A stretch of DNA of 48,521 nt from Caulobacter sp. (GTDB lineage: Bacteria; Pseudomonadota; Alphaproteobacteria; Caulobacterales; Caulobacteraceae), in NCBI GenBank assembly GCA_028291265.1, contig JAQGIK010000166.1, positions 1 to 48,521 on the forward strand, written 5' to 3'. The notes below the pieces were generated by a model, which was not told the DNA's origin, ran no database searches, and saw nothing but the letters and a program-made list of their open reading frames with translations. This document shows, one piece after another, positions 27,341-44,693 of this stretch; positions within the stretch are counted from its first letter, which is position 1, and every line of letters begins with the position of its first letter. Both the position numbers and the translations under genes were made by a program.

Positions 27341-27973
27341 CTAAACCCGCAGGCCCATGAACGGCAGGGCCCAGAGCAGTTCGACGTCCTCGATCGGCTT
27401 GAAGCGGGTGTTGATGCTCTCCAGGGTCCACAGGCCGGGGGCGGCGCCGCGGCGCAGGATCTTGACCACCTTGCGGCCGTCGGCGAGGCGGGCCATGACC
27501 TCCTGGCCGACCAGCGGGGTCGGGTCGTCGTAGCGGCGGCCGAAGATCAGGTGCTCGCCGTGGCGGAAGCGCGGCATCATGCTCTCGCCGTCGACGATCA
27601 GGACGATACCGTCCTCGGGGACCATGGGGTCCAGCCAGTCGGCGGCGGCGCCCATCTCGTAGTCGTCGTCGAACAGGGCCTCGGCCCCGGCCGCCACCTT
27701 GCCCAGCACCGGCAGGCCGGCCCGCCGGCCCTTCATCGCCCCCTTGCCGGCGTACAGCCACTCGGCCCGCACCCCGAAGGCGCGGGCGTAGTCCTCGGCC
27801 TTGCGGAAGGAGAAGCTGGCGTTGCCGTTCTCGTTGCTGGCGTAGGTGTTGAGGTTCCAGCCGTGGGCCCGGGCCGCCTCGGCGGCCGAGCCCAGACCCT
27901 TGGCGCGGCGGGCGCGGCGCAGGCGCTCGGCCCCGGCGGCATGTGGGGAGGGGAGGTCGGGCGGCGGGCTCAT
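27341..27973 (-). CDS. S24 family phage repressor (CI/LexA-like)
   Basis: 210 residues: an N-terminal Cro/CI-type HTH (ERLRRARRAKGLGSAAEAAR through AFGVRAEWLYAGKG) and a C-terminal S24 autoprotease domain with Ser S131 (VDGESMMPRF) and Lys K171 (KVVKILRR). An Ala-Gly cleavage site lies at about 95-96 (GKVAAGAEAL). The complete dyad and site predict RecA-stimulated self-cleavage and SOS induction. It is divergent from the Cro-like gene; two CTGTA-N7-TACAG operators lie between them and a third at 26666. AGG lies 8 nt before the start. This is probably the lysogeny repressor of the element. Confidence 0.92.
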   Translation of the reverse strand: MSPPPDLPSPHAAGAERLRRARRAKGLGSAAEAARAHGWNLNTYASNENGNASFSFRKAEDYARAFGVRAEWLYAGKGAMKGRRAGLPVLGKVAAGAEALFDDDYEMGAAADWLDPMVPEDGIVLIVDGESMMPRFRHGEHLIFGRRYDDPTPLVGQEVMARLADGRKVVKILRRGAAPGLWTLESINTRFKPIEDVELLWALPFMGLRV

Positions 27974-28331: not shown

Positions 28332-28865
28332 ATGCAGATCGCCGCCGTTTCCGGCGCGACGGGGTGTTCCCGCGCGCCTGCTTCCCAACCCCTCCAGCGC
28401 ACCCGGGCCGAATGGCCGGGCGAGCGGCTGGACCAACTTCGGGCCCTGTTCGACGCCGGGCTGTCGCACCTGCTGATCGCCGGTCGCATGGGCGTCGCCA
28501 AGGGGGTGATCAGCGCCAAGCTGGCCCGGCTCGGCTGGCGGCGCGGCGAGACCCTGGAGGCCCAGGTTCCGGTGCGCAGCCCGCCGCCGCTGGCGCCCGA
28601 GCCGGCGAGGGTTCGGCGGCTGGAGGACCTGGGCGAGGACGACTGCCACTGGCCGCTGGGCGAGGACGGGCGCGGTGTGCGGCTGTTCTGCGGATGCGCC
28701 CGGGCCGCGAGCGGCGCCTACTGCGAAGGGCATCGGGCGCGCTCGGTGCGGCGGCCGCGGGCCTGGGAGCGCAAGGCGATGGAGCCGCGCGCGCCCGAAC
28801 GCCGCGAGGACACCGGCTGGGACCGCTTCCGGGCGACCGAGGGGCCGGCGCGGGAGGAATGGTGA
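28332..28865 (+). CDS. GcrA-family cell-cycle regulator homologue
   Basis: About 177 residues. The N-terminal GcrA HTH is WPGERLDQLRALFDAGLSH, then LIAGRMGVAKGVISAKLARLGW; the C-terminal sigma-70-binding signature is CHWPLGED...LFCGCARAASGAYCEGHRA, with the conserved cysteine/histidine set. In Caulobacter, GcrA recruits sigma-70 polymerase at GANTC-methylated promoters in S-phase. A phage-borne copy may tune host or phage promoters. ATG 28332 was used; GTG 28323 is possible. Its stop overlaps the terminase start (GTGA), so the two are coupled. Confidence 0.85.
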   Translation: MQIAAVSGATGCSRAPASQPLQRTRAEWPGERLDQLRALFDAGLSHLLIAGRMGVAKGVISAKLARLGWRRGETLEAQVPVRSPPPLAPEPARVRRLEDLGEDDCHWPLGEDGRGVRLFCGCARAASGAYCEGHRARSVRRPRAWERKAMEPRAPERREDTGWDRFRATEGPAREEW

Positions 28866-30601
28866 GCGAGCCCTCCCGTACACACCGGCAGATCATCGTG
28901 GAGGCCGGGGGCGCCACGCTAGTGGCCCGGGCGCTCGGCTACGCTCGCGGGCGCGTGGCGCAGTGGCAGTGGAATGGCGTCCCCGCACGCTACTGGGGAG
29001 AGATGGCGGCGAAGGGCATCGCCGACGCCGAGGAACTGGCCCGGACCGCTCCTGTAGACGGTCGCCGAAAGGTCTTTGCGCCGAAGGCCATTCCGGCGGG
29101 CGAGACGGCGGCTATTTCGGCTGTTTCTGGACCCGCGGCTACGCCGCCTGTGTCGCGGCGCGCCAAGGCCGCGCGTCGAGACCTGCCAAGCTTCTGCCGC
29201 TTCATCGATGTCCCCGGCGTTGGCGAGCGGGTCAAACTGGCGGCGCACCACAAGCTGTGGCTGGCCAAGCTGGCGGCGGTCGAGCGCGGCGAAATCCGGC
29301 GGCTGATGGGCTTCATGCCGCCGGGGTCGGCCAAGTCGACCTATGCCGTGGATGTCTTCACGCCCTGGTTCCTGGCCCGGGCGGCAAACCGCAGCGTGCT
29401 GGTGGTGACCTACGCCACCACCCTGGCCGGGCGGCGCGGGCGTAAGGCGCGGGGGGTGACGCGCCAGCCGGCTTTCGGCGAGGCCATGGGCGTGCGGCCC
29501 GACAGGACCCGGGCCAGCGCCCTCGACTGGAGTCTCGACAACGGCAGCGACTGGATGGGGGCCGGCATGCTGGCCGGCATCACCGGCAACCGGGCCGACC
29601 TGATCGTCATCGACGACCCGGTGAAAGGACGGGCCGAGGCCGACAGCCCGCTGATCCGACGTCGGACGCGGGAGGAGTTCGACGACACCGTCCGCACCCG
29701 CCTGAAGGCCGGCGGCCGGATCGTGCTGATCCAGACGCGCTGGCACGAGGACGACCTGGCGGGGAGCCTGCTGCCGGAGGGCTATGACGGCGCTTCGGGT
29801 CCGGTGCTGTGCCGCGACGGCGAGGTCTGGGAGGTGGTCAACATCCCGGCCCAGGCCGAGCGGACCGACGATCCGCTGGGCCGGACGGCCGGCGACTATC
29901 TGTGGCCGGAGTACTGGGGCGCCGACCACTGGGGGCAGTTCAAGCTGAACCCACGCACCTGGAACGCCCTCTACCAGCAGCGGCCAAAACCCGACGAGGG
30001 CAGTTATTTCCAGCGCTCCTGCTTCCGGCGGTTCTGCGAAGGCCAGCAGCCGGCGGCGCTGCGCTACTATGGCTCCAGCGACTATGCGGTCAGCGAGGGG
30101 CGGGGCGACTACACGCGGCTCAACGTCTGGGGCGTCGATGCGGCGATGAACCTGTGGCGGGTGGCCAGCTGGGGCGGGCGCACCAGCAGCGAACAGTGGA
30201 TCCAGCAGCAGTGCGACCTGGTCGCCGAGTTCCGGCCCCTGGGGGGAATCCGCAAGTGGTTCGGCGAGGCCGGGGTGATCCAGCGGGCGGTCGAGCCGAT
30301 GCTGAAGGCGGCGCTGCGCGAGCGGCGGCTGGTCTGCGGCCTGGAATGGCTGGCTTCGTCGCAGGACAAGTCGGCGAGGGCGCGGTCGGCGCAGAGCCTG
30401 GTGCGCGAGGGCCGGGTCTGGGTGCGCGACGACGCCGACGGCGACTGCTTCATCGAGGAATGCGTCGCCTTCCCGGCCGGGCGGCACGACGACGAGGTCG
30501 ACTGCCTGTCACTGATCGGGCGGGTGGTCGATCGGCTCAGCCGGCCGGTGGTCGGGCGGGTGGAGGAGTTTGCGGATGGCGGGCGGGTGTTTGAGGATTG
30601 A
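28862..30601 (+). CDS. large terminase with N-terminal Cro-like HTH domain
   Basis: 579 residues. Residues ~7-62 form an HTH that aligns with the Cro-like protein encoded just upstream (24 identities in about 57 positions by my count; shared AGG, AR, GR, QW, RYW and EELA). A ~60-residue linker leads to the packaging motor: Walker A FMPPGSAKST (~150), Walker B LIVIDDPV (~250) and a RuvC-like nuclease (GSSDYAVSEGRGDYTRL; GRHDDEVDCLSLIG). The motor translocates DNA into proheads. No separate small terminase gene is visible, so the HTH may supply packaging-site recognition. GTG 28862 was chosen with GGGAGG 4 nt upstream; ATG 28859 is in frame but too close to it. Confidence 0.9.
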   Translation: MSEPSRTHRQIIVEAGGATLVARALGYARGRVAQWQWNGVPARYWGEMAAKGIADAEELARTAPVDGRRKVFAPKAIPAGETAAISAVSGPAATPPVSRRAKAARRDLPSFCRFIDVPGVGERVKLAAHHKLWLAKLAAVERGEIRRLMGFMPPGSAKSTYAVDVFTPWFLARAANRSVLVVTYATTLAGRRGRKARGVTRQPAFGEAMGVRPDRTRASALDWSLDNGSDWMGAGMLAGITGNRADLIVIDDPVKGRAEADSPLIRRRTREEFDDTVRTRLKAGGRIVLIQTRWHEDDLAGSLLPEGYDGASGPVLCRDGEVWEVVNIPAQAERTDDPLGRTAGDYLWPEYWGADHWGQFKLNPRTWNALYQQRPKPDEGSYFQRSCFRRFCEGQQPAALRYYGSSDYAVSEGRGDYTRLNVWGVDAAMNLWRVASWGGRTSSEQWIQQQCDLVAEFRPLGGIRKWFGEAGVIQRAVEPMLKAALRERRLVCGLEWLASSQDKSARARSAQSLVREGRVWVRDDADGDCFIEECVAFPAGRHDDEVDCLSLIGRVVDRLSRPVVGRVEEFADGGRVFED

Positions 30602-31018: not shown

Positions 31019-33127
<2,109 letters not shown>

Positions 33128-33249
33128 TCGACCCCAAAAGACCCCCGGGTACGCGGGCCTCCCCGAACTTTTGACGAGGATGCCGGTTTGCTACCAAGAT
33201 TGGGTTAAAGGGCGCCGACCGGCGTTATGTGGAAGCGTCCTGGAGGCCC

Positions 33250-33295
33250 TTGCGAGGGCTGGATGTGGGATAATGGTTTCACCGCTTCGATAAGG
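33250..33295 (+). promoter_or_regulatory. phage promoter-leader module, copy A
   Basis: TTGCGA, then GGGATAAT, then CCGCTTCGATAAGG, directly ahead of a small phage gene. The ATAAT-N7-CCGCTTCGATAAG block has identical spacing to the copies at 36204 and 39311. The -10-like element agrees with the Caulobacter housekeeping form; the downstream 13 bp would be in the 5' leader. The AAGGAG at its end is the ribosome site of the following gene. Confidence 0.72.
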
Positions 33296-33302
33296 AGAGA
33301 CC

Positions 33303-33482
33303 ATGCAACCGGACATGAAACCGCCGCGGCCGACCCCGCCGCCGCCGACCATCAACGACGCCCGCAAACGGGCCGAGGAGGCCGACCGGTTGCGCCAGCG
33401 GCGTGGACGGAGCGCCACCTTCCTGTCGAACGCGTTGGGCCGCAGCGAAGGCGGGGTGGCGACCAAGGTGTTGATGGGTTGA
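33303..33482 (+). CDS. small phage protein, 59 aa
   Basis: ATG 33303 with AAGGAG 6 nt upstream. A Pro-rich N-terminus (KPPRPTPPPPTI) is followed by a basic helix (DARKRAEEADRLRQRRGRSA) and the ending TFLSNALGRSE...ATKVLMG. The pattern R-R-G-R-x-A-T-x-L ... T-K-x-L-x-G is common in short proteins of tailed phages near the portal/terminase genes; their function is unknown. It is the first gene after promoter copy A and may share its transcript with the metalloprotease. Confidence 0.75.
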   Translation: MQPDMKPPRPTPPPPTINDARKRAEEADRLRQRRGRSATFLSNALGRSEGGVATKVLMG

Positions 33483-33606
33483 TCCTGTGGCGAGGCGGCC
33501 TGAGGTGCGGCGCCTCGCCACATAAGTGTCGGTATTCATTGCAATTCGTCAGGCTATCCCCAATTTGTGCCCTCGGGCGCGGGGTCGAGTAGTTGACGAG
33601 GACCCC

Positions 33607-36153
33607 ATGGCGTACCGCACCGAGTTTGCTTCCCCCCTGCCGTCAGAGACGCTGACCGGCCTTGACGATTTCGCCGACGACGCGGCGTTTGCCGGAGCCC
33701 AGGACACCGTTCCGGGCGCTTTCAGCCCTGACGACAGGCCGGTTTCCGTCGCCGATGGCGGCGGCGATGCGGGGGCGGGCGGTTTCCTGAACGCCGACCA
33801 GCGCGGCGGCACGGCGACCAACGGCAAGCCGTCGATGACCATCGACGAGGCGGCGGTGCAGCTGAACCGCACCTACAGCTCCTGGAACACCTTCGACCAC
33901 GTCAACGGCGTCGCCGATGTCGATAACAACTGGGACGATCCGGTCTGGGGCGGCGGCGTCACCCACGTGACCTTTGCCTTCCGCAGCGCAGCGCCGACCA
34001 GCATGCCGGACGACACGGCCGGTTTCAGCCGTTTCACCACCGCCCAGATCAACGCCACCCTGCTGGCGCTGGCCTCATGGTCGGACGTGGCCAACGTCGT
34101 CTTCGACCGGGTCGGGACGGGGACCAGCGGCGAGGCGGCCTATTCGGGCAACGCCAAGATTCTCTACGGCAACTATGCGAGCGGCGCGGACGGCGCGGCC
34201 GCCTTCGCCTATTTCCCCAGCCAGAGCGCCATCGGCGGCGACGTCTGGGTCAACAGTTCGCTGAGCTACAACGCCAATCCGGCGCTGGGCAATTACGGCA
34301 TGCTGACCCTGGTGCACGAGACCGGCCACGCCATCGGCTTCTCGCATCCGGGCGCCTACAACGCCGACGCCAACACCACCTTCACCTATGCGTCCTCGGC
34401 CGAGTACTATGAGGACAGCCACCAGTACACGGTGATGAGCTATTTCACCGAGAACAACACCGGGGCCGATTTCGGCCCGGCCTATCCCGCCACCATCATG
34501 CTGGACGACATCGCCGCCGCCCAGCGGACCTATGGCGTCAACCGGACGACGCGGACGGGTGACACCGTCTATGGCTTCAATTCCAACGCCGACCGGCCGT
34601 GGTTCGTCGCGGCCAGCGCCGGCGCGGCGCTGGTGTTCGCGGTCTGGGACGCGGGCGGGGCCGACACCTTCGACTTCTCCGGCTATGGCGATGGCCAGAC
34701 GATCGACCTCCGCGAGGGCGCCTTCTCCAGCGTCGGCAGCTACAACGGCAGGGCGCTGGTCGGCAACGTCGCCATCGCCAAGGGGGCGGTGATCGAGAAC
34801 GCCATCGGCGGGGCCGGGGCCGACACCCTGGTCGGCAACGCCGTGGCCAACCACCTGACCGGCGGCGGCGGCAATGACAGCCTGACCGGCGGCGCCGGGG
34901 CCGATGTCTTCCAGTTCGCCGGCGCGGCCGGCAATGACGTCATCACCGACTTCAAGGTCGGGACCGACCGGATCGATGACACCGCCTACGGCCAGTACAA
35001 GTCGATCGTCCAGAGCGGGGCGGATGCGCTGGTGACCCTGGCGACGGGCGTGACAGTGCGGCTGACCGGCATCGCCGCCTCGACGGTGACCAGCGCCAGC
35101 TTCCTCTCCAACACCTCGCCCCCGCCGCCGCCGCCCCCGCCGCCTTCAGGCGGGACCTGGGACCGGACGCTGGTCGGGACCATCGGCGCCAACACCCTGA
35201 CCGGTGACGCCCGTAACGAGCTGATCCAGGGCCTGGACGGCAACGACACCCTGAATGGCCTGGCCGGCGCCGACCGGCTCGAGGGCGGGGCCGGGGCCGA
35301 CAGGCTGTCCGGCGGCGACGGCGACGACGTGCTGGTCGGCGGGGCCGGGCAGGACACCCTGACCGGCGGGGCCGGGGCGGATGTCTTCGTGCTCGGGGCC
35401 GGCGACGGGGCCAACACCATCGCCGACTTCCAGGACGGGATCGACCATATCGACATCGGCGGCTATGGCGCCTACACGGCCATCTCGCAGCTGACCTCCG
35501 GGGCCAAGATTACCTTCGGCGACGGCGGCTATGTCATCCTGAGCGGCGTGCAGGCCAGCAGTCTGAGCGCGGCGGACTTCGTCGGCGCCGCCTCGCCGCC
35601 GCCTCCTCCCTCGGGCGGCGGGCTGACGCCGCCGGCCGGCTATGTGGCGGTCACCGGCGCCTCGACCAACGACACCAAGGTCGGTGGGACCGGCTCGGAC
35701 GCGGTCCAGGGCCTGGCCGGCAATGACACCCTGTACGGCCGCGACGGCGACGACTGGGTCAGCGGCGGAACCGGGGCCGACAAGCTGTTCGGCGAGGGCG
35801 GCGCCGACGTCCTCTACGGCGGCTCGGGCGCGGACCTGCTGTGGGGCGGGGCCGGGGCCGACGCCTTCGTCTATGGCGCGACGGCCGACAGCACGGCGGG
35901 GGCGTTCGACACCATCCGCGACTTCAGCGCCGCGGCGGGCGATGTGGTCGACCTCAGCGATGTCGACGCCAACATCGGCCTGGCCGGCAACCAGGCGTTC
36001 GCGCTGGTCGCCGCCTTCACCGGGGCGGCCGGGCAGATGACCGTGTCGACGGCGTCGGGGATCAGCACGCTCAGCTTCGACGTCAATGGCGACGGCGTGG
36101 CCGACATGGTGATCAAGACGCTGGGCGCGGTGGAGGACAATTACATCCTCTGA
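33607..36153 (+). CDS. serralysin-type M10 RTX metalloprotease
   Basis: 848 residues. After a ~90-residue pro-region, a catalytic M10 domain has zinc motif HETGHAIGFSH (H237) and Met-turn YTVMSYF, followed by the serralysin C-domain. Three RTX blocks follow (about 398-440, 540-595 and 700-755) with GGxGxDxLx nonapeptides such as GGAGADTLVG, separated by proline-rich spacers. The C-terminal ~70 residues act as a type I secretion signal in this family, so it should be exported in one step and calcium-folded. No ABC exporter lies nearby. Caulobacter SapA, an S-layer protease, is a family member. ATG 33607 has GAGG 5 nt upstream. It lies among virion genes with no promoter module of its own. Confidence 0.93.
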   Translation: MAYRTEFASPLPSETLTGLDDFADDAAFAGAQDTVPGAFSPDDRPVSVADGGGDAGAGGFLNADQRGGTATNGKPSMTIDEAAVQLNRTYSSWNTFDHVNGVADVDNNWDDPVWGGGVTHVTFAFRSAAPTSMPDDTAGFSRFTTAQINATLLALASWSDVANVVFDRVGTGTSGEAAYSGNAKILYGNYASGADGAAAFAYFPSQSAIGGDVWVNSSLSYNANPALGNYGMLTLVHETGHAIGFSHPGAYNADANTTFTYASSAEYYEDSHQYTVMSYFTENNTGADFGPAYPATIMLDDIAAAQRTYGVNRTTRTGDTVYGFNSNADRPWFVAASAGAALVFAVWDAGGADTFDFSGYGDGQTIDLREGAFSSVGSYNGRALVGNVAIAKGAVIENAIGGAGADTLVGNAVANHLTGGGGNDSLTGGAGADVFQFAGAAGNDVITDFKVGTDRIDDTAYGQYKSIVQSGADALVTLATGVTVRLTGIAASTVTSASFLSNTSPPPPPPPPPSGGTWDRTLVGTIGANTLTGDARNELIQGLDGNDTLNGLAGADRLEGGAGADRLSGGDGDDVLVGGAGQDTLTGGAGADVFVLGAGDGANTIADFQDGIDHIDIGGYGAYTAISQLTSGAKITFGDGGYVILSGVQASSLSAADFVGAASPPPPPSGGGLTPPAGYVAVTGASTNDTKVGGTGSDAVQGLAGNDTLYGRDGDDWVSGGTGADKLFGEGGADVLYGGSGADLLWGGAGADAFVYGATADSTAGAFDTIRDFSAAAGDVVDLSDVDANIGLAGNQAFALVAAFTGAAGQMTVSTASGISTLSFDVNGDGVADMVIKTLGAVEDNYIL
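34795..35870 (+). repeat. RTX calcium-binding repeat blocks
   Basis: Tandem nine-residue GGxGxD repeats in three clusters (34795-34925, 35220-35400 and 35690-35870), separated by Pro-rich linkers (34 kb-type PPPPPPPP run at about 35118-35147). Internal similarity between clusters suggests segment duplication. Confidence 0.85.
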
Positions 36154-36185
36154 CGACGGCGTCGCGGGCCACGTCTTTTTTCCTG

Positions 36186-36231
36186 TTGCTCCGGGAACGT
36201 GGGATAATAGTCCTGCCGCTTCGATAAGCGG
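36186..36231 (+). promoter_or_regulatory. phage promoter-leader module, copy B (portal operon)
   Basis: TTGCTC, GGGATAAT and CCGCTTCGATAAG with the same ATAAT-to-CCGCTT offset (12 bp) as copies A and C. Here the leader block forms a perfect hairpin GCCGCTT-CGAT-AAGCGGC. The portal start codon lies 110 bp past the ATAAT. Confidence 0.75.
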
Positions 36232-36260
36232 CTCCAGACATCACACACCGCGGATGGCGC

Positions 36261-36282
36261 GCGGCGGAGGCCCCTCCGCCGC
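36261..36282 (+). promoter_or_regulatory. 5' leader hairpin of the portal operon
   Basis: GCGGCGGAGG-cc-CCTCCGCCGC, a perfect 10-bp inverted repeat 31 nt before the portal start and within the presumed transcript from promoter copy B. It may protect the mRNA or regulate translation. Confidence 0.65.
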
Positions 36283-36313
36283 ATAGCGAACCCGTGCGTT
36301 CCGGGGAGCCTAA

Positions 36314-37954
36314 ATGACCGACAGTCGCGCCGAAGAGGTGTTGCGCCGCCAGGCCCGCATGGAGGCCGAACGGGCCCCGCTGGACGGGGTCTGCCAGGAG
36401 GTGGCCGAGCGGGTGCTGACCCGGCAGCGGGACTTCACGGGCCGGCAGAGCGGGGCGGCCGCCTGGCGCTCGGAGAAGGTGTTCGACAGCACCGCCCCGC
36501 TGGCGCTCGACAAGTTCGCGGCCGCCATCGAGAGCATGCTGACCCCGCGCACCAGCCGCTGGCACGAACTGGCCATGCGCGACTGGCGCGACGCGCGGGA
36601 CCGGCCGGCAACGCTGCCCGAGGGGGTGCGGGCCTGGCTTGGGCAGGTCAACGAAACCCTGTTCTCGGCCCGCTATGCGGCGGGGGCCAATTTCGCCAGC
36701 CAGGCCCACGAGACCTATGTCGGCCTCGGCGCCTTCGGCAACGGCGCGCTGTTCGTCGACGAGGTGGAAGGCGGGGGCTTGCGCTACCGTTCGATCCCGT
36801 TCGCCGAGACCTGGTTCGCCGAGAACTTCCAGGGACAGGTCGACACCGTCCACCGCAAGTTCGAGCTGACCGCGCGCCAGTGGCTGCAGCGGTTCGGCGA
36901 CGAGACGCCGGCCAGCATCCGGCGGGCCGCCGAGGACGAGCCGCACCGCAAGTTCGAGCTGATCCATTGCGTCGGGCCGCGCGAGGACGCCGACTGGTCG
37001 CGCAAGGACTGGCGGGGCATGGCCTTCGCCAGCTGGTACGTCAGTTTCGAGGGCCGCAAGCTGCTCAAGGAGCAGGGCTACCGGACCATGCGCTATGCGG
37101 TTGCGCGCTATGTGACGGCGCCGCGCGAGATCTACGGGCGCGGGCCGGCGATGACGGTGCTGGCCGACATCAAGACGGTCAACGAACAGCAGAAGACCCT
37201 GCTGCGCACCGGCCAGCTGATCGCCGAGCCGCCGCTGCTGCTGTCCGACGAGGGCGGGCTGACGGCCTTCAAGCTGCAGCCGCGGGCGATCAATCGCGGG
37301 GCCCTGTCGCAGGATGGGACCGAACTCGTCCGTCCCCTGAGCATCGGCGCGAACCTGCCGATTACCCTGGAGATGGTCAATCAGACTCGGGAGGCGATCA
37401 ACCAGGCTTTCCTGGTCACCCTGTTCCAGATCCTCGTCGAGACGCCGCAGATGACGGCCACCGAGGCCATGTTGCGGGCCCAGGAGAAGGGGGCGCTGCT
37501 GGCCCCGGTGATGGGGCGACTGCAGTCGGAACTGCTGGGGCCGCTGGTCCAGGCCGAGCTCGACATCCTGGCCGGCGCGGGCGCGCTGCCGGAGATGCCG
37601 CCGGAGCTGGCGGGCTTCGAGGATGTGGTCACGGACATCGACTACACCTCGCCGCTGGCCCGGGCCCAGAAGAGCGACGAGGGCGTGGCGATCCTGCGAC
37701 TGCTCGAGGACGCGGCGGCGGTCGGGCGGTTCGACCCCTCGGCCGTCAAGATGATCAAGGGACCCGAAACGCTGCGGCGGCTGGCCGAGATCCGCGGGGC
37801 GCCGGCCGGGCTGCTGCGCAGTCCCGAGGACATGGAGGCCCTGGCCGAGCAGGATGCGGCGATGGGCCGGCTGCAGACCCTGCTGGGCGCCGCCGGACAG
37901 GCGGCCGGGGTCGCGAAGGATGCCGCCGCGGCCGGGTTGCTGGAGGGCCAGTAA
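36314..37954 (+). CDS. head-tail connector (portal) protein, podovirus type
   Basis: 546 residues, normal for the podoviral portal family. Recognisable stretches: RQRDFTGRQSGAAAWRSEKV, FDSTAPLALDKFAAAIESML, TPRTSRWHEL, YGRGPAMTVLADIKTVNEQQ, and the C-terminal helices with QILVETPQMTATEAMLRAQE. Twelve copies form the ring through which DNA is packed and ejected. ATG 36314 follows GGGGAG. It leads an operon with a Bbp19-like gene (1-nt overlap) and the scaffold gene, under promoter copy B. Confidence 0.92.
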   Translation: MTDSRAEEVLRRQARMEAERAPLDGVCQEVAERVLTRQRDFTGRQSGAAAWRSEKVFDSTAPLALDKFAAAIESMLTPRTSRWHELAMRDWRDARDRPATLPEGVRAWLGQVNETLFSARYAAGANFASQAHETYVGLGAFGNGALFVDEVEGGGLRYRSIPFAETWFAENFQGQVDTVHRKFELTARQWLQRFGDETPASIRRAAEDEPHRKFELIHCVGPREDADWSRKDWRGMAFASWYVSFEGRKLLKEQGYRTMRYAVARYVTAPREIYGRGPAMTVLADIKTVNEQQKTLLRTGQLIAEPPLLLSDEGGLTAFKLQPRAINRGALSQDGTELVRPLSIGANLPITLEMVNQTREAINQAFLVTLFQILVETPQMTATEAMLRAQEKGALLAPVMGRLQSELLGPLVQAELDILAGAGALPEMPPELAGFEDVVTDIDYTSPLARAQKSDEGVAILRLLEDAAAVGRFDPSAVKMIKGPETLRRLAEIRGAPAGLLRSPEDMEALAEQDAAMGRLQTLLGAAGQAAGVAKDAAAAGLLEGQ

Positions 37955-38229
37955 TGGACATCCTGCATCCCCTGCTGCGCCGCAAGCGCGCCTATCAGGG
38001 CCTGTTCGGCGACGGCTCGCAGGGTGAGGCCCGGGCCGTGCTGGCCGATCTCAAACGCTTCTGCATGGTCCCCGAGGCGCCGGTGGCGCGCAGCGAGGGC
38101 GGGGCCGTGGACCCGCTGGCCTCGATGCGGCTGGTCGGTCGCCAGGAAGTGTTCAACCGCATCCGCGCCATGGTCGCCATCGACGACCGGGCCCTGTTCA
38201 ACCTGAAGGACGAGGCCATTGATGAGTGA
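37954..38229 (+). CDS. Bbp19-like phage protein, 91 aa
   Basis: Starts in a TAATG overlap with the portal stop. The 91-residue product (LLRRKRAYQGLFGDG, VLADLKRFCMVPEAP, DPLASMRLVGRQEVFNRIRA) matches the small Bbp19-type proteins found next to portal genes in Bordetella BPP-1-like podoviruses. Its role is unknown, possibly head assembly. It overlaps the scaffold gene by 8 nt. Confidence 0.85.
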   Translation: MDILHPLLRRKRAYQGLFGDGSQGEARAVLADLKRFCMVPEAPVARSEGGAVDPLASMRLVGRQEVFNRIRAMVAIDDRALFNLKDEAIDE

Positions 38230-39049
38230 GGATGGGATGAGTGAGCAAGCGCTGTCGATCGAAGGCCTGATGGAAGAAACGCCGGACACGGAGGTTTCCA
38301 CGGATGGGCCCGGCTTCCTGGACCAGTTCACCGACGAGGCGACGCGCGGCTACATGGAGCGCAAGGGTTTCAAGGACGTCCAGGCGCTGGGGGCCAGCTT
38401 CGCCTCGCTGGAGCGAATGATGTCGTCCGGCCGCGTGCCGTTGCCGGCCGGCGACGACGATACGGAGGGCTATGCGCGGGCCTTCGCGGCCCTGGGGCGG
38501 CCGGAAACGGCGGCGGACTACGGTTTTGGCGAACTGGCCGGGGCCGATCCGGAGTTCAGCGGCCAGGCCGCCGAGTGGCTGTTCGAGGCCGGGGTCGGCA
38601 AGGCCCGCGCCGCCGCGCTGGCCGAGAAGTGGAACGCCTATGTCGGCGAGCGTGAGGCCGCGGCGCAGGACGCCTTCGAGGCCCAGAGCCAGGCCGACTG
38701 GATCGACCTGCAGCGCGAATGGGGCCCGCGCTTCGCCCAGAACACCGAGACCTTTCGGCGCGGCGCCCTGACCTTCGGCCTGTCGCGCCAGGAGATGGCG
38801 AGCATCGAGGCGGGGCTGGGCACCCGGCGCACGGTCGAGCTGTTCGCCCGGATCGGCGAGGGGCTGGCGGAGGACCGCTTCATCGAGGGCGAGGGCCGCT
38901 CGGGGTTCGGCATGAGCCGCGAGCAGGCCGAGGGTCGGATCGCGTCGTTGCGGCGCGACCAGGCCTGGCAGGCGCGCTGGATGGCCGGAGGGGCCGACGA
39001 GAAGTCTGAGTGGTCGCGGCTGACGAAGATCGCGGGCGCGGAGCGATAG
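38222..39049 (+). CDS. phage scaffold/head assembly protein
   Basis: 275 residues, acidic and mostly helical, placed between portal and capsid genes as scaffold proteins are. Segments include GFLDQFTDEATRGYMERKGF, SLERMMSSGRVPLPAGDDD and KWNAYVGEREAAAQDAFEAQ, with a basic C-terminus (RRDQAWQARWMAGG). Scaffolds direct capsid shell assembly and then leave or are cleaved. ATG 38222 with GAGG 6 nt upstream is used; ATG 38237 is possible. Assignment rests on composition and synteny. Confidence 0.8.
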   Translation: MSEDGMSEQALSIEGLMEETPDTEVSTDGPGFLDQFTDEATRGYMERKGFKDVQALGASFASLERMMSSGRVPLPAGDDDTEGYARAFAALGRPETAADYGFGELAGADPEFSGQAAEWLFEAGVGKARAAALAEKWNAYVGEREAAAQDAFEAQSQADWIDLQREWGPRFAQNTETFRRGALTFGLSRQEMASIEAGLGTRRTVELFARIGEGLAEDRFIEGEGRSGFGMSREQAEGRIASLRRDQAWQARWMAGGADEKSEWSRLTKIAGAER

Positions 39050-39055
39050 GGCCGT

Positions 39056-39268
39056 TCAGTTGGCCGGTCGCTCCGCCGTCGGCTGTTCGCGCATGATGCG
39101 GTCGACCTTGATGAGGGCCGGGCCGAGGATGGCCAGCATGAGCAGCGCCAGAACCACGAACGGCGCGAAGCAGGCGGCGATGATCCATGGGATCAGCTTC
39201 CGGTTCTTTCGGCGGATGCGCGCGTCCCGGTCAGCCGCCGTCTCCTTGGTCATCTCGGCGGGACTCAT
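39056..39268 (-). CDS. small membrane protein on opposite strand, 70 aa
   Basis: ATG 39268 with AGGA upstream. A charged N-terminus (MTKETAADRDARIRRKNRK) precedes a long hydrophobic stretch (LIPWIIAACFAPFVVLALLM, then LAILGPALI) that forms one long or two short membrane helices, followed by a basic tail. Family not recognised. It is inserted against transcription between scaffold and capsid genes, in a gap that also contains promoter copy C, as phage moron genes often are. It may act in the lysogen (for example superinfection exclusion), but nothing in the sequence proves it. Confidence 0.7.
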   Translation of the reverse strand: MSPAEMTKETAADRDARIRRKNRKLIPWIIAACFAPFVVLALLMLAILGPALIKVDRIMREQPTAERPAN

Positions 39269-39292
39269 GCTGATCCTGATTCATAGAGGCTG

Positions 39293-39336
39293 TTGCGGCG
39301 CGCAAAGGCTATAATAGTCGAGCCGCTTCGATAAGG
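39293..39336 (+). promoter_or_regulatory. phage promoter-leader module, copy C (capsid)
   Basis: TTGCGG-N11-GGCTATAATAG matches the Caulobacter housekeeping promoter consensus well (GCTATAAT). CCGCTTCGATAAGG follows at the same 12-bp offset as in copies A and B. A GATTC (GANTC) methylation site lies at 39278, just upstream of the -35. The capsid start is 128 bp past the ATAAT. Confidence 0.78.
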
Positions 39337-39355
39337 AGCGCCTCCCCAAACATCT

Positions 39356-39392
39356 CCCGCCAACGCGGGACACGGACCCGCGGACGCCGCGG
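39356..39392 (+). promoter_or_regulatory. 5' leader hairpins of the capsid transcript
   Basis: CCCGC-caac-GCGGG (39356-39369) and CCGCGG-acg-CCGCGG (39378-39392), two adjacent stem-loops in the presumed capsid leader. The portal leader also has a strong hairpin, so structured leaders may be a common trait of these late transcripts. Confidence 0.55.
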
Positions 39393-39438
39393 ACAAGCCG
39401 ATCGGTTCATCTATCAACCCATCGGAGACCAGACGTCC

Positions 39439-40311
39439 ATGACGGACCTTTCCGCCCAATATCGTATCGAGTTCGCCAAGACGGCGAGCCTGCTTCTGCA
39501 ACAGCGCGGCTCGAAGCTGCGGGGCCATGTGATGGTCGGCAGCCACAAGGGCGAGGGCGCCTCGCCCGTCGACCAGTACGGCGTCACCGAGGCGCGCGAG
39601 CGCACCGGCCGCGCCGTGCCCAAGGAGAGCGCCAACACGCCGGTCGACCGGCGCTGGGCCTATCCGCGCTTCTTCGACTGGAGCGACATCGTCGACAACA
39701 TCGACCTCCTGCAGACCGCGTCGGACCCGCAGAATCCGCTGGTCCAGGCCTGCACCGCCAGCCTCGGCCGGCGCATCGACGACGAGATCATCCGGGCCTT
39801 CTTCGCCGAGGCGCGGACCGGCAAGCAGGGCGGCACGACGACGGCCTTCCCCGGCTCCCAGCAGGTGGTGGCCGGCGGTGTCGGCCTGACCTTCGAGAAG
39901 CTGCGGGCCGCCAAGAAGATCCTGATGGCCAACGAGGTCGACCTGGCCAACGATCCGATCATCTGCGTGGTCAATTCGGTGCAGCACGACGCCCTGCTCG
40001 GCGAGATCGAGATCACCAGCGCCGACTTCAACGGCGGCGACCGGCCGGTGCTGAAGGAGGGGATCATCACCCGCTTCCTGGGCATCGAGTTCGTCCACTG
40101 CGAGCGGCTGACCCTGTCGGGCGCCAACCGGCGGGTGCCGATCTACGCCAAGAGCGGCATGCACCTGGGAATCTGGTCGGACGTGGCCACCGACATCGGG
40201 CCGCGCCGCGACCTCGAGGGCAACCCGATGGAGGTGACCGGCTCGGTGACCATCGGGGCGACCCGCACCGAGGAGAAGAAGGTCGTCGAGGTGCTCTGCG
40301 CCGAGAGCTGA
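39439..40311 (+). CDS. major capsid protein
   Basis: 290 residues. The sequence (FAKTASLLLQQRGSKLRGHV, VDRRWAYPRFFDWSDIVDNI, LVQACTASLGRRIDDEIIRA, TFEKLRAAKKILMANEVD, IEITSADFNGGDRPVLKEG) fits the HK97-fold capsid group of podoviruses and relatives. The position directly after scaffold, with its own promoter and structured leader, supports this; strong expression would be expected. It is followed by a palindromic extragenic element rather than an obvious terminator. Confidence 0.88.
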   Translation: MTDLSAQYRIEFAKTASLLLQQRGSKLRGHVMVGSHKGEGASPVDQYGVTEARERTGRAVPKESANTPVDRRWAYPRFFDWSDIVDNIDLLQTASDPQNPLVQACTASLGRRIDDEIIRAFFAEARTGKQGGTTTAFPGSQQVVAGGVGLTFEKLRAAKKILMANEVDLANDPIICVVNSVQHDALLGEIEITSADFNGGDRPVLKEGIITRFLGIEFVHCERLTLSGANRRVPIYAKSGMHLGIWSDVATDIGPRRDLEGNPMEVTGSVTIGATRTEEKKVVEVLCAES

Positions 40312-40327
40312 CGATGGCTCCGAAGTT

Positions 40328-40466
40328 GCTCCCCCTTCGGGGGAGCTGTCGCCCGCGTAGCGGGTGACTGAGGGGGTCCCCACCGTCGGCGGGTTCGCGG
40401 ATGCGGCCACGTCGGTGGGGACCCCCTCCACCGCGCTTCGCGCGGTCCCCCTCCCCGAAGGGGGAG
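40328..40466. repeat. long palindromic extragenic element
   Basis: Outer hairpins GCTCCCCCTTCGGGGGAGC (40328-40346) and CTCCCCGAAGGGGGAG (40451-40466) bracket inner 16-bp arms GAGGGGGTCCCCACCG (40370-40385) and CGGTGGGGACCCCCTC (40413-40428). Long intergenic palindromes of this kind are known in Caulobacter genomes. It occupies most of the 195-bp gap between capsid and the next gene and could limit read-through. Confidence 0.8.
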
Positions 40467-40506
40467 GAACTGACCGCGCCCATACCCAGAAATTCGAGGA
40501 TCATTC

Positions 40507-41016
40507 ATGGCCATCGCCAACACCAAATCCACCGCCGTTTCCAACCGTGACGCCAGCCCGCGCGTGCCCAGTCCCGCCCATCTGGTGCGGGGGCCGCTGT
40601 TCGAGGCGGTGGGGACGGTCGAGATCGCCGCCGCCGACGACGATACCTCCGTGTACCGCATGGCGCGGCTGCGCAGTTCGGACCGGATCTCGCAGCTGAC
40701 CGTCTTCAACGACGCCATCACCGGCGGGACGGGCTTCGACCTCGGCCTCTATCGTACCGCCGACGACGGCGGCGCGGTCGTCGACGCCGACCTGTTCGCC
40801 TCGGCGATCAGCCTCGCCAGCGCCACCACCACGGGCACGGACGTCGTCTTCGAGAGCGCCGCCACCGACATCGCCAAGATCGAGAAGCGCCTGTGGGAGC
40901 TGCTTGGCCTCAGCGCCGACCCGCAGATCGACTATGACGTGGCCTTCACCGGCGCGACCGTCGGCACGGCGGCGGGGACGCTGAGCCTGCGGGTGCGGTT
41001 CACCGGCGGGTATTAG
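40507..41016 (+). CDS. phage virion-associated protein, 169 aa
   Basis: Family not firmly recognised. A 169-residue, beta-rich protein: VGTVEIAAADDDTSVYRMAR, ISQLTVFNDAITGG, FDLGLYRTADDGG, and the ending GTLSLRVRFTGGY. Its place after the capsid gene suggests a head decoration or head-completion protein. ATG 40507 follows a palindromic element. A second, different element follows its stop. Confidence 0.7.
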   Translation: MAIANTKSTAVSNRDASPRVPSPAHLVRGPLFEAVGTVEIAAADDDTSVYRMARLRSSDRISQLTVFNDAITGGTGFDLGLYRTADDGGAVVDADLFASAISLASATTTGTDVVFESAATDIAKIEKRLWELLGLSADPQIDYDVAFTGATVGTAAGTLSLRVRFTGGY

Positions 41017-41235: not shown

Positions 41236-41838
41236 ATGCCCACATCCCCCACCGCGGTCGGCAACGCGGCGCTCGGCAAGCTTGGCCAAGGCGCGGTGTT
41301 GTCGTTCGACGATCCCGACGACCGGGCGCGCTGGCTGAAGAGCCGGTTCGCCGACGTGCGGGATCTCTGCCTGCGGGCCAACCGCTGGCACTTCGCCATG
41401 GCCCGGGCGCGGCTAAGCGCCGAGGCGGCCGCGCCGGCCTTCGGCTATGCGCGGCAGTTTCCTCTGCCCACGGACTGTCTGCGGCTGGTCGAGGTCGGCG
41501 GCGTGGCCGTGACGCCGGGCCTGGCCGACTACCAGGGCGCATCCCAACCGGCCTTTGCACTGGAGGGCGGGCGGATCCTGACCGACGCCTCGGCCCCGCT
41601 CGACGTCCGCTACGTCCGCCGGGCCGAGGATGTGGCGGGCTGGGACCCGCTGTTCGCCGAGGCCGTCGCCTGCCGTCTGGCCTTCGATCTGGCCGAGAAG
41701 CTGACCCAGTCCTCGGGAAAGAAGGAAGCGGCCCTGCGCGACTACCAGTTGGCCGTGCGCGAGGCGGTGCGGGTCAACGCCATCGAGACCGCTCCCGAAT
41801 CCGCGCCCGACGGGGCGTGGGTGCTTGCTCGCCTGTGA
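41236..41838 (+). CDS. tail tubular protein A-like
   Basis: 200 residues. The opening TAVGNAALGKLGQGAVLSFD, then WLKSRFADVRDLCLRANRWH, FPLPTDCLRLVEVGG, DVRYVRRAEDVAGWDPLFAE and CRLAFDLAEKLTQSSGKKEA match the T7 gp11-like (tail tubular A/head completion) family. It forms the ring below the portal. The upstream leader contains CCGCTTCTTAAGGA, a partial match to the leader block of the phage promoters. The next gene begins 26 nt after its stop. Confidence 0.88.
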   Translation: MPTSPTAVGNAALGKLGQGAVLSFDDPDDRARWLKSRFADVRDLCLRANRWHFAMARARLSAEAAAPAFGYARQFPLPTDCLRLVEVGGVAVTPGLADYQGASQPAFALEGGRILTDASAPLDVRYVRRAEDVAGWDPLFAEAVACRLAFDLAEKLTQSSGKKEAALRDYQLAVREAVRVNAIETAPESAPDGAWVLARL

Positions 41839-41863
41839 GGGGCGCGGCCGTGAGGACGACCCC

Positions 41864-44134
41864 ATGAAAGCCAATCCCGCCATCACCAGTTTCAACGCCG
41901 GGCTGCTGTCCCCCCTGCTGGGCGGACGGCCGGACCTGGAGAAGTGGCAGTCGGGCCTGATCCGCTGCGACAACCTCATCCCGCGCGTGCAGGGGGCCCT
42001 GCAGCGGGCCGCCGGCAGTGTCTTCGTCGGGGCGGTCAAGGACAGCGCAATGCGCTGCTGGCTGGCGCCGTTCGTGTTCAGCCAGGCCGACGCCTTCGTG
42101 CTGGAGTTCGGGCCAGGCTATATCCGTTTCTTCCGCAACCGTGGGCGGCTGGTGGACGAAGACGAGGACGTCTTCGAAATCGAAAGCCCCTACCTCGCCC
42201 CCGACCTGACCCGCCCGGACGGCAGTTTCGGCGTGCGGTTCGAACAGTCCGGCGACGTCGTTTACCTGGCCTGCGCCGGCCATGCGCCGCGGGTGCTCAA
42301 GCGGCTGTCGAACCTGAACTGGGTGCTGGAGGTCTTCGAGGCCAAGGGCGGCCCGTTCCAGGACGCCAACACCGACGAGGCGATCACCGTCCTGGCGGCC
42401 GGGACCCTGACCGTCGGCGGTACGGTGACCCTGACGGCGAACAACGACATCTTCCAGGCCGGCCACGTCGGCGGGCTTTTCGAGCTGGAGCTCAAGGACG
42501 GGGCCGATGTGCGGGCCTGGCAGGTGCGCACCACCACCGACGTCGGAGACCGGCGGCGGGCCGACTACCGGCACTATCTCTGCGCCCAGGTCGGGCCGGT
42601 CGACACCACCGACAAGCCGGCCATCTGCGGCGAGGAGCTGCCGGTCCACACGCGCGGCAAATATTGGGACGGCACAGGCGAGGAGCAGAAGGGCGACGGG
42701 GCGGTCGGCTCGATCGGGGTCGAGTGGGAATACCTCCACTCCGGCTACGGCCACGTGCGGATCACCGCCGTGACCAGTGGGACCGAGGCGACCGGGGAGG
42801 TGGTGGCGCGGCTGCCGGACGAACTTGTGGCGCAGCCGACCCATCGCTGGGCCTTCGGGGCCTGGTCGGCGGCAGCCGGCTGGCCGGACAATGTCTGTTT
42901 CTTCCGCGAGCGGCTGAGCTGGTTCCGGGGGCAGCAGGTCTGGCATTCGACGGCCGGCGACTTCGCGAATTTCGAAGCCAGGACACACGGCGAGGTGCTG
43001 CCCGACAGCGCCGTCGTGCTGTCCATCCAGTCGGCCCAGGGCAACCCTATCGAATGGGCGGCCCCGACCCGCTCTGTGCTGTTCATCGGGGCAGGCGGCG
43101 GCGAGCACAGCCTGAAGGCCCAGACCAGCAGCCAGGCCTATGGGCCGGGCAACACCCAGCAGGATCCCGAGACCGCCTGGGGCGGGGTCGGGGTGGAGCC
43201 GGTGCAGGTCGGGGCCGGCGTGGTGTTCGTCGAGAAGCTGGGGCGGCGGCTGCGGCTGCTGGTCCCGGCCCAGGACGGCTACGAGGCGTTGGACCTGAAC
43301 AAGTATCGCGGCCAGCTTCGGTTCCCCATAGTGGCCATGGCCTGGCAGCAGACGCCGCACGAAAGCATCTGGTGCGTCACGGCCGAGGGCGGGCTGGAGG
43401 CCCTGACCCTGCAGCTCGAGGACAAGGTGTTCGCCTGGCGGCGGCATCTGCTGGGCCTGCCTGGTCTTGGAGCGGTGGAGTCTGTGGCGGTGATCCCGTC
43501 GCCGGATGGCGGGCGCGACGATGTCTGGCTGATCGTCCGTCGGCTGATCGACGGCGAGACGCGGCGCTATGTCGAACGGCTGGCGGCCGAGTGCGAGGCC
43601 GGCGACGACCAGGCTCTCAGCGTCTATGCGGCCGCCGCCCTGACCTATGACGGCGCGCCGACCGCGACCCTGTCGGGGCTGGAGCACCTGGAGGGCGAGA
43701 CCGTCACGGTGAAGGCCGACGGGGCGGCGCACCCGGACCGGGTGGTGAGCGGCGGGGCGATCACCCTGCAGGCGCCGGCCGGCAAGGCGGTGGTCGGCCT
43801 CGCGGCGCCCTATGCCGGCCAGCTGATGCCGCTGGAGGCCGGGGCCGCGGCGGGCAGCGCCCAGGGGCGGATCAAACGGGTGCATGCCTTGACCGTGCGG
43901 CTGCTCGACAGCCTGGGCGGGCGGTTCGGCCCGGCCATCGGGCGCTGCGATCCGCTGCAGCATCGGCAGGCGGGGGAGGCGATGGACGGGCCGCCGGCGC
44001 TGACCAGCGGCGACATCGCCATGACCTTTCCCGGCGGTTACGACGGGGCGGCGACCATCGCCTTCGAGGGCGACGACGGTTTTCCGTTCACCCTGATCGG
44101 GCTCTACCCAGAGCTGGTGACCTATGAAGGGTGA
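41864..44134 (+). CDS. tail tubular protein B / tail nozzle-like
   Basis: 756 residues. The N-terminal FNAGLLSPLLGGRPDLEKWQ, then CDNLIPRVQGALQRAAGSVF, is diagnostic of the podoviral tail protein family (gp12-like). Later segments include WYRGQQVWHSTAGDF-type blocks (SWFRGQQVWHSTAGDFANFE) and KYRGQLRFPIVAMAWQQTPH. It forms the lower tail tube of the virion. ATG 41864 was chosen because the family N-terminus begins here. It overlaps the next gene by 11 nt. Confidence 0.9.
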   Translation: MKANPAITSFNAGLLSPLLGGRPDLEKWQSGLIRCDNLIPRVQGALQRAAGSVFVGAVKDSAMRCWLAPFVFSQADAFVLEFGPGYIRFFRNRGRLVDEDEDVFEIESPYLAPDLTRPDGSFGVRFEQSGDVVYLACAGHAPRVLKRLSNLNWVLEVFEAKGGPFQDANTDEAITVLAAGTLTVGGTVTLTANNDIFQAGHVGGLFELELKDGADVRAWQVRTTTDVGDRRRADYRHYLCAQVGPVDTTDKPAICGEELPVHTRGKYWDGTGEEQKGDGAVGSIGVEWEYLHSGYGHVRITAVTSGTEATGEVVARLPDELVAQPTHRWAFGAWSAAAGWPDNVCFFRERLSWFRGQQVWHSTAGDFANFEARTHGEVLPDSAVVLSIQSAQGNPIEWAAPTRSVLFIGAGGGEHSLKAQTSSQAYGPGNTQQDPETAWGGVGVEPVQVGAGVVFVEKLGRRLRLLVPAQDGYEALDLNKYRGQLRFPIVAMAWQQTPHESIWCVTAEGGLEALTLQLEDKVFAWRRHLLGLPGLGAVESVAVIPSPDGGRDDVWLIVRRLIDGETRRYVERLAAECEAGDDQALSVYAAAALTYDGAPTATLSGLEHLEGETVTVKADGAAHPDRVVSGGAITLQAPAGKAVVGLAAPYAGQLMPLEAGAAAGSAQGRIKRVHALTVRLLDSLGGRFGPAIGRCDPLQHRQAGEAMDGPPALTSGDIAMTFPGGYDGAATIAFEGDDGFPFTLIGLYPELVTYEG

Positions 44135-44693
44135 TAACGACTGCGCTGATCCGCGCCAGAACGTGGATGGTCCTGACGGGCCGGCGCTGCCCCCTCCACC
44201 ACCGCCTTCGGCGGCGGTCCCCCTCCCCCGCGCTTCGCGCGAGGGAGGAACTTCGGTCTTCCCCTTCCGGGCCGCGCATCTGAAGCAGCTGACCCTGCAG
44301 CCGGCCCAGGCCGCCTGGCGCGGGCGGATCGACGGTGAGGCGGGGGCGGCGCTGGAGGCGTCGAGCCTGGCCTGGACGCTGTTTGCCGGGGGACGGGTCA
44401 TCGGCTGCGGCGGGGTGATCGACCGCGGCGGCGGGCGAGGCGAGGCCTGGGCCCTGCTGGCCCAGGACGCCGGCCCGGCCATGCTGGCCGCCACCCGGGC
44501 GGTGCGCCGTTATTTCGAGACCGCGCCGTTTCGCCGGATCGAGGCGGTGACGGCGGTCGACTTCAGGCCGGCGGCGCGCTGGACGCGCCTGTTGGGCTTC
44601 AAAAGCGAGGGGCTGATGCGCGCCTATTGCGAGGACGGCGGCGCGGCGATGCGCTGGGCATTCATCAGGGAGGACGGATCATGGCCTGGGTAA
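44124..44693 (+). CDS. phage GNAT-like virion protein carrying a repeat-derived insert
   Basis: 189 residues. After ~50 low-complexity residues (ALPPPPPPSAAVPLPRASRE) comes a GNAT-like fold of the type seen in podoviral internal proteins: FPFRAAHLKQLTLQPAQAAW, WTLFAGGRVIGCGGVIDRGG, TRAVRRYFETAPFRRIEAVT and the ending ARWTRLLGFKSEGLMRAYCE. The N-terminal odd segment is encoded by a copy of the extragenic palindrome found after the capsid gene, so the element has inserted in frame or the true start is later. It overlaps the tail gene upstream and the next gene downstream. Confidence 0.8.
   Translation: MKGDNDCADPRQNVDGPDGPALPPPPPPSAAVPLPRASREGGTSVFPFRAAHLKQLTLQPAQAAWRGRIDGEAGAALEASSLAWTLFAGGRVIGCGGVIDRGGGRGEAWALLAQDAGPAMLAATRAVRRYFETAPFRRIEAVTAVDFRPAARWTRLLGFKSEGLMRAYCEDGGAAMRWAFIREDGSWPG
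44190..44251. repeat. palindromic element half-copy inside a coding region
   Basis: CCCCCTCCACC, ACCGCC-ttcg-GCGGCGGT, CCCCCTCCCCCGCG, CTTCGCGCGAGGGAGGAACT: the same order and hairpins as the right half of the element at 40413-40470, but within the open frame of the GNAT-like gene. Confidence 0.75.

Follow-up and report, generated by a model that had tools for sequence, protein, structure and literature searches.

The window analysed here, that is, the whole stretch of 48,521 nucleotides of contig JAQGIK010000166.1 from Caulobacter sp. (assembly GCA_028291265.1), carries a cluster of phage genes in the order S24 repressor, GcrA-like protein, large terminase (TerL), small gene, portal, capsid and tail genes, in which the small gene, the portal gene and the capsid gene are each preceded by one copy of the motif ATAAT-N7-CCGCTTCGATAAG, whose 13-letter second part is referred to below as the core. 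An earlier note on this DNA had drawn attention to the constant spacing of the motif at the three phage genes and to a TTGC 18 to 20 bp upstream, and both observations held: a pattern search of the window returned exact matches at 33270, 36204 and 39311, no fourth match even with three mismatches allowed, and no match in 100 dinucleotide-shuffled versions, and the TTGC starts 20, 18 and 18 nt upstream of ATAAT in copies A, B and C, respectively. The copies and the genes downstream of them are the following.

33250 to 33294, plus strand: predicted promoter copy A (class II), with TTGC at 33250, the extended -10 TGGGATAAT and the core CCGCTTCGATAAG at 33282 to 33294
33303 to 33482, plus strand: gene of a 59-amino-acid phage protein, downstream of copy A (phrog_831, E value 1.3e-4)
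36186 to 36228, plus strand: predicted promoter copy B (class II), ahead of the portal operon, with TTGC at 36186, GATAAT and the core at 36216 to 36228
36314 to 37954, plus strand: portal or head-tail connector, downstream of copy B (PF12236, E value 3.5e-113; phrog_332)
39293 to 39335, plus strand: predicted promoter copy C (class I -10), ahead of the capsid gene, with TTGC at 39293, TATAAT and the core at 39323 to 39335
39439 to 40311, plus strand: major capsid protein, downstream of copy C (PF19821, phrog_3437)

The extended -10 TGGGATAAT is common to copies A and B, TATAAT is found in copy C, and the ribosome-binding site of the 59-amino-acid gene (AAGGAG) overlaps the end of the core.

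In the whole assembly of this genome (4.35 Mb; designated G000, the other G-numbers denoting other genomes and the L-numbers individual loci), the core occurs in 42 exact copies against none for the reversed 13-mer, and in 67 copies against three when one mismatch is allowed, which excludes both a motif private to the phage and a background density. The shared late-promoter family suggested in the earlier note fits the phage operons well, but its restriction to the phage does not hold, since host loci, orphan small-terminase (terS) genes and repeat elements carry the motif too. Of the 67 sites we read 63, comprising every one of the 42 exact matches and 21 of the 25 with one mismatch. The best -10 hexamer lies 5 to 8 nt upstream of the exact cores and matches TATAAT at five or six positions in 39 of the 42, the remaining three having GACAAT or TAGACT; several one-mismatch sites fall within coding sequence, have no -10 and look like chance. 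The looser pattern ATAAT-N1-9-GCTTCG matches G000 at 47 places, G061 at 79 and G017 at 34, a few of which overlap or are chance, against one control match in each genome. When the pattern-found sites in the fetched loci of these three genomes were pooled (55, 89 and 27, respectively, for a total of 171), 155 of them proved to have 5 to 7 nt between -10 hexamer and core; the distance is 6 nt in 60 of the 89 sites of G061, and in G000 it is 7 nt in 25 of the 55. The uniform spacing described earlier thus applies to the window copies but not genome-wide. Given normally placed starts, this distance would put the core at about +1 to +13.

The promoters with this core fall into two classes. Class I has the consensus TATAATGG, seen in 80 G061 sites as GGGG-TATAAT-GGT with T-rich sequence from -38 to -30, and class II (46 sites) reads C-R-TG-S-GATAAT-RG, or in short form TGnGATAATGG, with the T and the G of the extended -10 each at 97%; since the sites were chosen by those letters, their conservation within the classes is partly by construction. 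In the fetched G061 loci 87 of the 89 sites are intergenic, and 23 of the 55 G000 sites have an orthologous core-bearing locus among the fetched loci. The best reading of CCGCTTCGATAAG is that of a DNA promoter element belonging to a predicted family of strong sigma70-type promoters. A plasmid search gave no near match to positions 33000 to 41000 of the window, and the literature search turned up no 12-letter piece of the core and no account of this system.

The earlier note had also placed the conserved block in the 5' leader and proposed post-transcriptional control through it, pointing to a hairpin in copy B. That hairpin is confirmed by folding (-11.1 kcal/mol over 30 nt), those of copies A (-3.1) and C (-8.0) being weaker, and it is possible to imagine the core acting as RNA, that is, as a 5'-terminal hairpin or base-pairing site governing transcript stability or translation, by pairing of CCGCTT with AAGCGG. 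Pairing of the core with its own flank exceeds that with permuted flanks, although weakly, in class II (46 sites; mean longest stem 6.15 versus 5.68, reached in 0 of 300 permutations), and it does so in G017 for class I (19 sites; 15 of 300). However, the class I sites of G061 and G000 give no signal (269 and 193 of 300 permutations reach the observed value), and the CGG that completes the hairpin arm directly follows an AAG-ending core in just 10 of the 40 such sites of class II and in 7 of the 64 of class I. Because class I pairing is mostly null and the completions are few, the DNA reading is favoured, with a hairpin possible at some sites; control through the leader finds no general support, G017 class I and class II being partial exceptions, and we regard a role of the core as RNA as distinctly unlikely. 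No Rfam family matched the window at gathering scores.

If the core is a DNA element, a candidate for its reader is encoded in the same cluster.

28332 to 28865, plus strand: GcrA-like sigma70 cofactor, candidate reader of the core (PF07750, 56.1 bits against a cut-off of 26.9)

The N-terminal DNA-binding and the C-terminal sigma-interacting domains of this protein both match GcrA structures (top matches 5yiv and 5yix), and conservation amounts to 83% in the DNA-binding domain, 44% in the linker and 63% in the sigma-binding region. GcrA binds sigma2 and stimulates open-complex formation (PMC7403470). Among the 75 genomes of the genus set, a strong GcrA-like match is present in eight, and at least 10 motif matches are found in seven of these eight versus none of the 67 others. 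The binding site for a phage regulator considered in the earlier note fits well with this pattern, the GcrA-like protein being the predicted candidate; it is probably the reader of the core, with the promoters described here as its presumed targets. The target promoters of the GcrA family are expected to carry GANTC; between -60 and +20 of the core start it is present in 2 of the 46 sites of class II and in 15 of the 125 of class I, and the core itself contains none.

The position of the core just downstream of the -10, together with the -10-like GATAAG inside it, would also suit a promoter-proximal pause site or a site where an antiterminator is loaded, as for Q of phage 21. Yet GATAAG has no T at the last -10 position, and Pfam and PHROGs scans, which covered part of the open reading frames of a contig ending at 48521, showed no antiterminator in the window; we consider this explanation improbable. 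The same scans returned no RNA polymerase, of which a T7-type late promoter would require a cluster-encoded single-subunit form, and no integration or replication genes.

The promoter also stands ahead of small-terminase genes. TerS (PF03592) matches occur in 10 of the 75 genus genomes, and in seven GcrA-like-positive genomes 22 of the 23 matches have an upstream class II -10 and GCTTCG core, the 23rd starting 20 bases from a contig start; G422 is GcrA-like positive and has no TerS match. In G341 core variants ahead of terS end in GATTAG and GACAGG. The five TerS genes of G000 all lie off the window contig, so that terS presents a trait of gene transfer agents, namely, scattered functions under what would be shared control.

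Furthermore, the core is followed in G000 by repeats in intergenic solo elements: at 22 loci there are at least three CTTCA repeats (A elements) and at six there are CCACC repeats (B elements). Since the search pattern missed boxes such as GACAAT, 20 of the 22 A elements entered the period and composition analyses. In these 20 arrays, four-letter matches at lags of 11, 22 and 33 amount to 13.4, 11.1 and 9.1%, versus about 0.7% in shuffles, and in the six B arrays to 9.2, 7.3 and 10.2%; the arrays of class I are looser, with periods of 10 to 12, 21 to 23 and 31 to 33. At each of the 23 G000 loci with CTTCAAA-N4-CTTCAAA the promoter and the core are present; one of these cores has a mismatch, and at one locus an intact terS lies in between. 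An 11-bp array lies in or across the 3' end of terS at 5 of 27 TerS loci, against a background of 1 in 3476 windows at that score, as listed here.

L221 (G000), terS 3' end: CTTCAAA array
L234 (G000), terS 3' end: GGGCCACC array
L222 (G347), L232 (G398) and L236 (G017), terS 3' ends: CCCTGAC-type arrays

At L217 and L218 the array score arises elsewhere in the locus, and other lags are high too. Judged from its sequence context, then, the core fronts structural operons, orphan terS genes and dozens of intergenic elements with arrays phased at about 11 bp. Because the array words sit at terS 3' ends, the solo arrays look like terS genes minus their middle. A repeat array in or beside terS is what would mark a pac site, and to see the arrays as putative pac-like packaging sites is an attractive reading of their anatomy.

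The arrays might instead be Rho-utilisation sites, the promoter and array yielding either a terminator or a short noncoding RNA ended by Rho, and having no part in packaging. Rho sites are richer in C than in G, and since the arrays have more C than G on the motif strand (36% C and 13% G in A, 41 and 29% in B, 43 and 26% in class I), termination is a possible function; many elements also lie at gene 3' ends. On the other hand, the exact 11-nt period of the A and B arrays is tighter than Rho requires, and the excess of C over G is only mild in B. Direct repeats of the RcGTA-type cluster of Caulobacter crescentus do work as a terminator, but they are 150 bp long and come with inverted repeats (PMC11150451). 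We consider the Rho explanation possible, on the unlikely side.

At some places in the chromosome the same slot holds an array element in G000 and a class I element in G061 or G017, with both flanks matching in L029/L109, L033/L183 and L066/L138 and a single flank in L033/L133, L047/L136 and L011/L176; a clean empty site at glpX was not obtained, as the upstream synteny differs between G000 and G061. In G061 the class I core forms the right end of an element of 270 to 300 bp, and many such elements start with GAATATGTCTAGACATATTC and contain GACCTAC-type boxes. Among the G061 palindromes listed, 44 of 53 have a core at 217 to 298 bp, and nine have none within 450 bp by coordinates, a variant core being present in six of the nine (L284, L285, L286, L290, L291 and L292) and absent in three. 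The palindrome is found in 85 copies in G061, 16 in G422, eight in G000, four in G017, two in G398 and one each in G341, G347, G371 and G458, and neither in the other 66 of the 75 genus genomes nor in the viral contigs. G458, which is 76% complete, has four loose motif matches in addition to its palindrome and no GcrA-like match. G431, with two TerS genes, shows no strong GcrA-like match, no motif, at either TerS locus or elsewhere, and no palindrome. As a marker of the system the palindrome is weakened, since single copies in G061, G000 and G341 occupy a short divergent intergenic region, and for this reason only amplified copies count. The coding starts flanking these single palindromes (L287, L296 and L303) are presumably those of hut genes, and a palindrome between divergent hut-like genes suggests that class I elements may carry a HutC-type operator. 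The 12-letter centre of the palindrome occurs in two papers, which appear, from the abstracts, unrelated.

A selfish or neutral dispersed repeat, whose promoter-bearing elements spread between genes with no dedicated regulator, would account for several of these observations: motif matches range from 4 to 79 across the eight related genomes, the CTTCAAA array is confined to G000 among the 12 genomes searched (41 matches in 23 loci, none in the other 11), the solo arrays resemble internally deleted terS genes, and 76 identical bases at the 3' ends of the dispersed CTTCA elements L011 and L020 indicate recent copying or conversion. Such a repeat would not be expected to place one core ahead of orthologues of the phage and terS genes across several species, and in the orthologous slot L015/L081 the palindrome and the block from the -10 to the core are identical where the rest has diverged, in sites that were preselected by the core. 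We judge it unlikely.

The remaining features of the cluster are as follows.

27341 to 27973, minus strand: CI-like S24 repressor (PF00717, phrog_4)
28862 to 30601, plus strand: large terminase with a YdaS-like N-terminus (phrog_38, E value 4.7e-86; phrog_8008; PF15943 under its cut-off)
38219 to 39049, plus strand: phage protein between portal and capsid, in a scaffold-like position (phrog_3742, of unknown function)
41236 to 44693, plus strand: two tail protein genes and a gene of an internal-virion-like protein (phrog_394, phrog_376, phrog_4177/308)

The exact frame of TerL gave no Pfam match at 0.001, and its YdaS-like DNA-binding N-terminus perhaps substitutes for the missing TerS. In both G000 and G061 the small phage gene has a host-like hybrid histidine kinase gene beside it (31019 to 33127 in the window), and an M10 serralysin-type metalloprotease with RTX repeats (33607 to 36153) lies between the small gene and the portal gene; as the protease is absent there in G061 and an FG-GAP/RTX protein takes its place in G017, this position looks like a cargo slot.

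Gene order is conserved across the loci compared, three motif-bearing viral contigs have the same cluster, and the S24 repressor is 88 to 97% identical over the aligned part in eight loci. In a search of 299 family genomes, the capsid has relatives of 88 to 97% identity in seven other genus genomes and of 51% in G431, a further eight giving weak matches only; the eight named relatives comprise four to five Caulobacter or Caulobacteraceae records, one Brevundimonas-labelled bin, and more distant alphaproteobacterial and Burkholderiales bins. The ratio of nonsynonymous to synonymous substitution rates (dN/dS) is 0.10 to 0.21 for the capsid, 0.15 to 0.23 for the portal and 0.05 to 0.12 for the repressor. 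By these sequence comparisons the cluster is podovirus-like and held under purifying selection in related genus genomes. By pattern, the motif precedes the portal gene in 8 of 11 clusters examined and the capsid gene in 7 of 13; inspection by eye adds L203, which has TAAAAT, to the latter. It precedes the small gene in five of eight loci; one of the others has no upstream sequence, and L206 and L249 have the same upstream sequence with no motif. In the most distant clusters, L209 and L210, no motif is found at the cluster genes.

Taken together, position and co-occurrence in one clade suggest a regulatory link, and we propose that the core is a sigma70 promoter element read by the GcrA-like protein, which would co-regulate the cluster, the terS genes and the arrays. 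The conserved N-terminal domain of the protein would bind the core and its C-terminal domain sigma70 domain 2, heads and small terminases would be activated together, the arrays would be pac-like DNA sites for the small terminases, and all parts together would work as a gene-transfer-agent-like system. We put forward this explanation tentatively, giving it nearly an even chance of being right. Several points weigh against it. The eight genomes with the GcrA-like gene seem to form a single clade, so that the co-occurrence may reflect one event, and one of them, G341, has just four motif matches, none ahead of the small or portal genes. The GcrA-like gene evolves fairly fast (dN/dS 0.38 to 0.40), the capsid genes of L206 to L208 have no motif, and the core varies beyond the three richest genomes, as in CCGCTTCGATCCC ahead of terS in G347 and G371. 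Moreover, where both flanks were called, 45 of 78 class I sites in G061 face a gene 3' end, which is odd for a messenger promoter. Against a simple packaging reading of the arrays, the isolated DNA-binding domain of SF6 shows little specificity for repeats (PMC4737164).

A more specific version of this proposal, rather unlikely in our estimate, sees a podovirus-derived gene transfer agent with scattered packaging starts, in which orphan terS genes bear recognition arrays of their own, solo copies with promoter, core and array but an internal deletion have spread over the chromosome through packaging and transfer of the DNA next to an array, and a captured GcrA-type cofactor with a new DNA word activates heads, terminases and arrays together. 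If the proposal is right, Caulobacter relatives have a second gene-transfer-agent-like lineage that has a sigma70 cofactor and a promoter word of its own, the case shows how packaging genes and sites could disperse through a host genome, and a GcrA-family protein has exchanged methylated GANTC for a word downstream of the -10.

Among known systems, the GcrA-sigma70 regulon of Caulobacter (PF07750) is alike in having a two-domain sigma70 cofactor that acts through sigma2, by which the -10 is read. However, host GcrA is directed to GANTC sites with N6-methyladenine (m6A) (PMC7987155, PMC7403470), in contrast to CCGCTTCGATAAG here, and the gene described here lies in a phage cluster. The phiCbK protein gp222 is likewise a GcrA-family protein encoded by a phage, but phiCbK is a large siphophage for which control of the host cycle was proposed, with no dedicated promoter word in the excerpt (PMC3556154). 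The podoviruses of the BcepC6B and HTVC010P types share a homologous portal with the cluster (41 and 35% identity, the closest portal being that of BUCT708 at 45%); unlike the present case, in which terS genes are scattered and the window contig has no TerS match, they are actual phages. The pac site of SPP1 overlaps the promoters, the ribosome-binding site and the start of terS (PMC6316719), and direct repeats are present in the pac of SPP1 and SF6 (PMC4737164). Repeats at terS together with a shared promoter are thus common to both, the arrays here lying within terS and in solo copies with the terS promoter; but those phages have one site per genome, whereas the arrays, known from sequence, occur at terS 3' ends and in chromosomal solo copies.

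The gene transfer agent of C. crescentus (CcGTA), which we take to be of the RcGTA type, offers a parallel in organization. Purifying selection on a phage-derived structural cluster, as in gene transfer agents, is found here for capsid and portal (dN/dS 0.10 to 0.23). With its regulators GafY, GafZ and IHF, CcGTA likewise combines a domesticated phage cluster with distant accessory genes under shared control, but the element ascribed putatively to GafZ is situated between -35 and -10 (PMC11150451), whereas the core is downstream of the -10. Podoviral head genes and a GcrA-like regulator further distinguish the present cluster.

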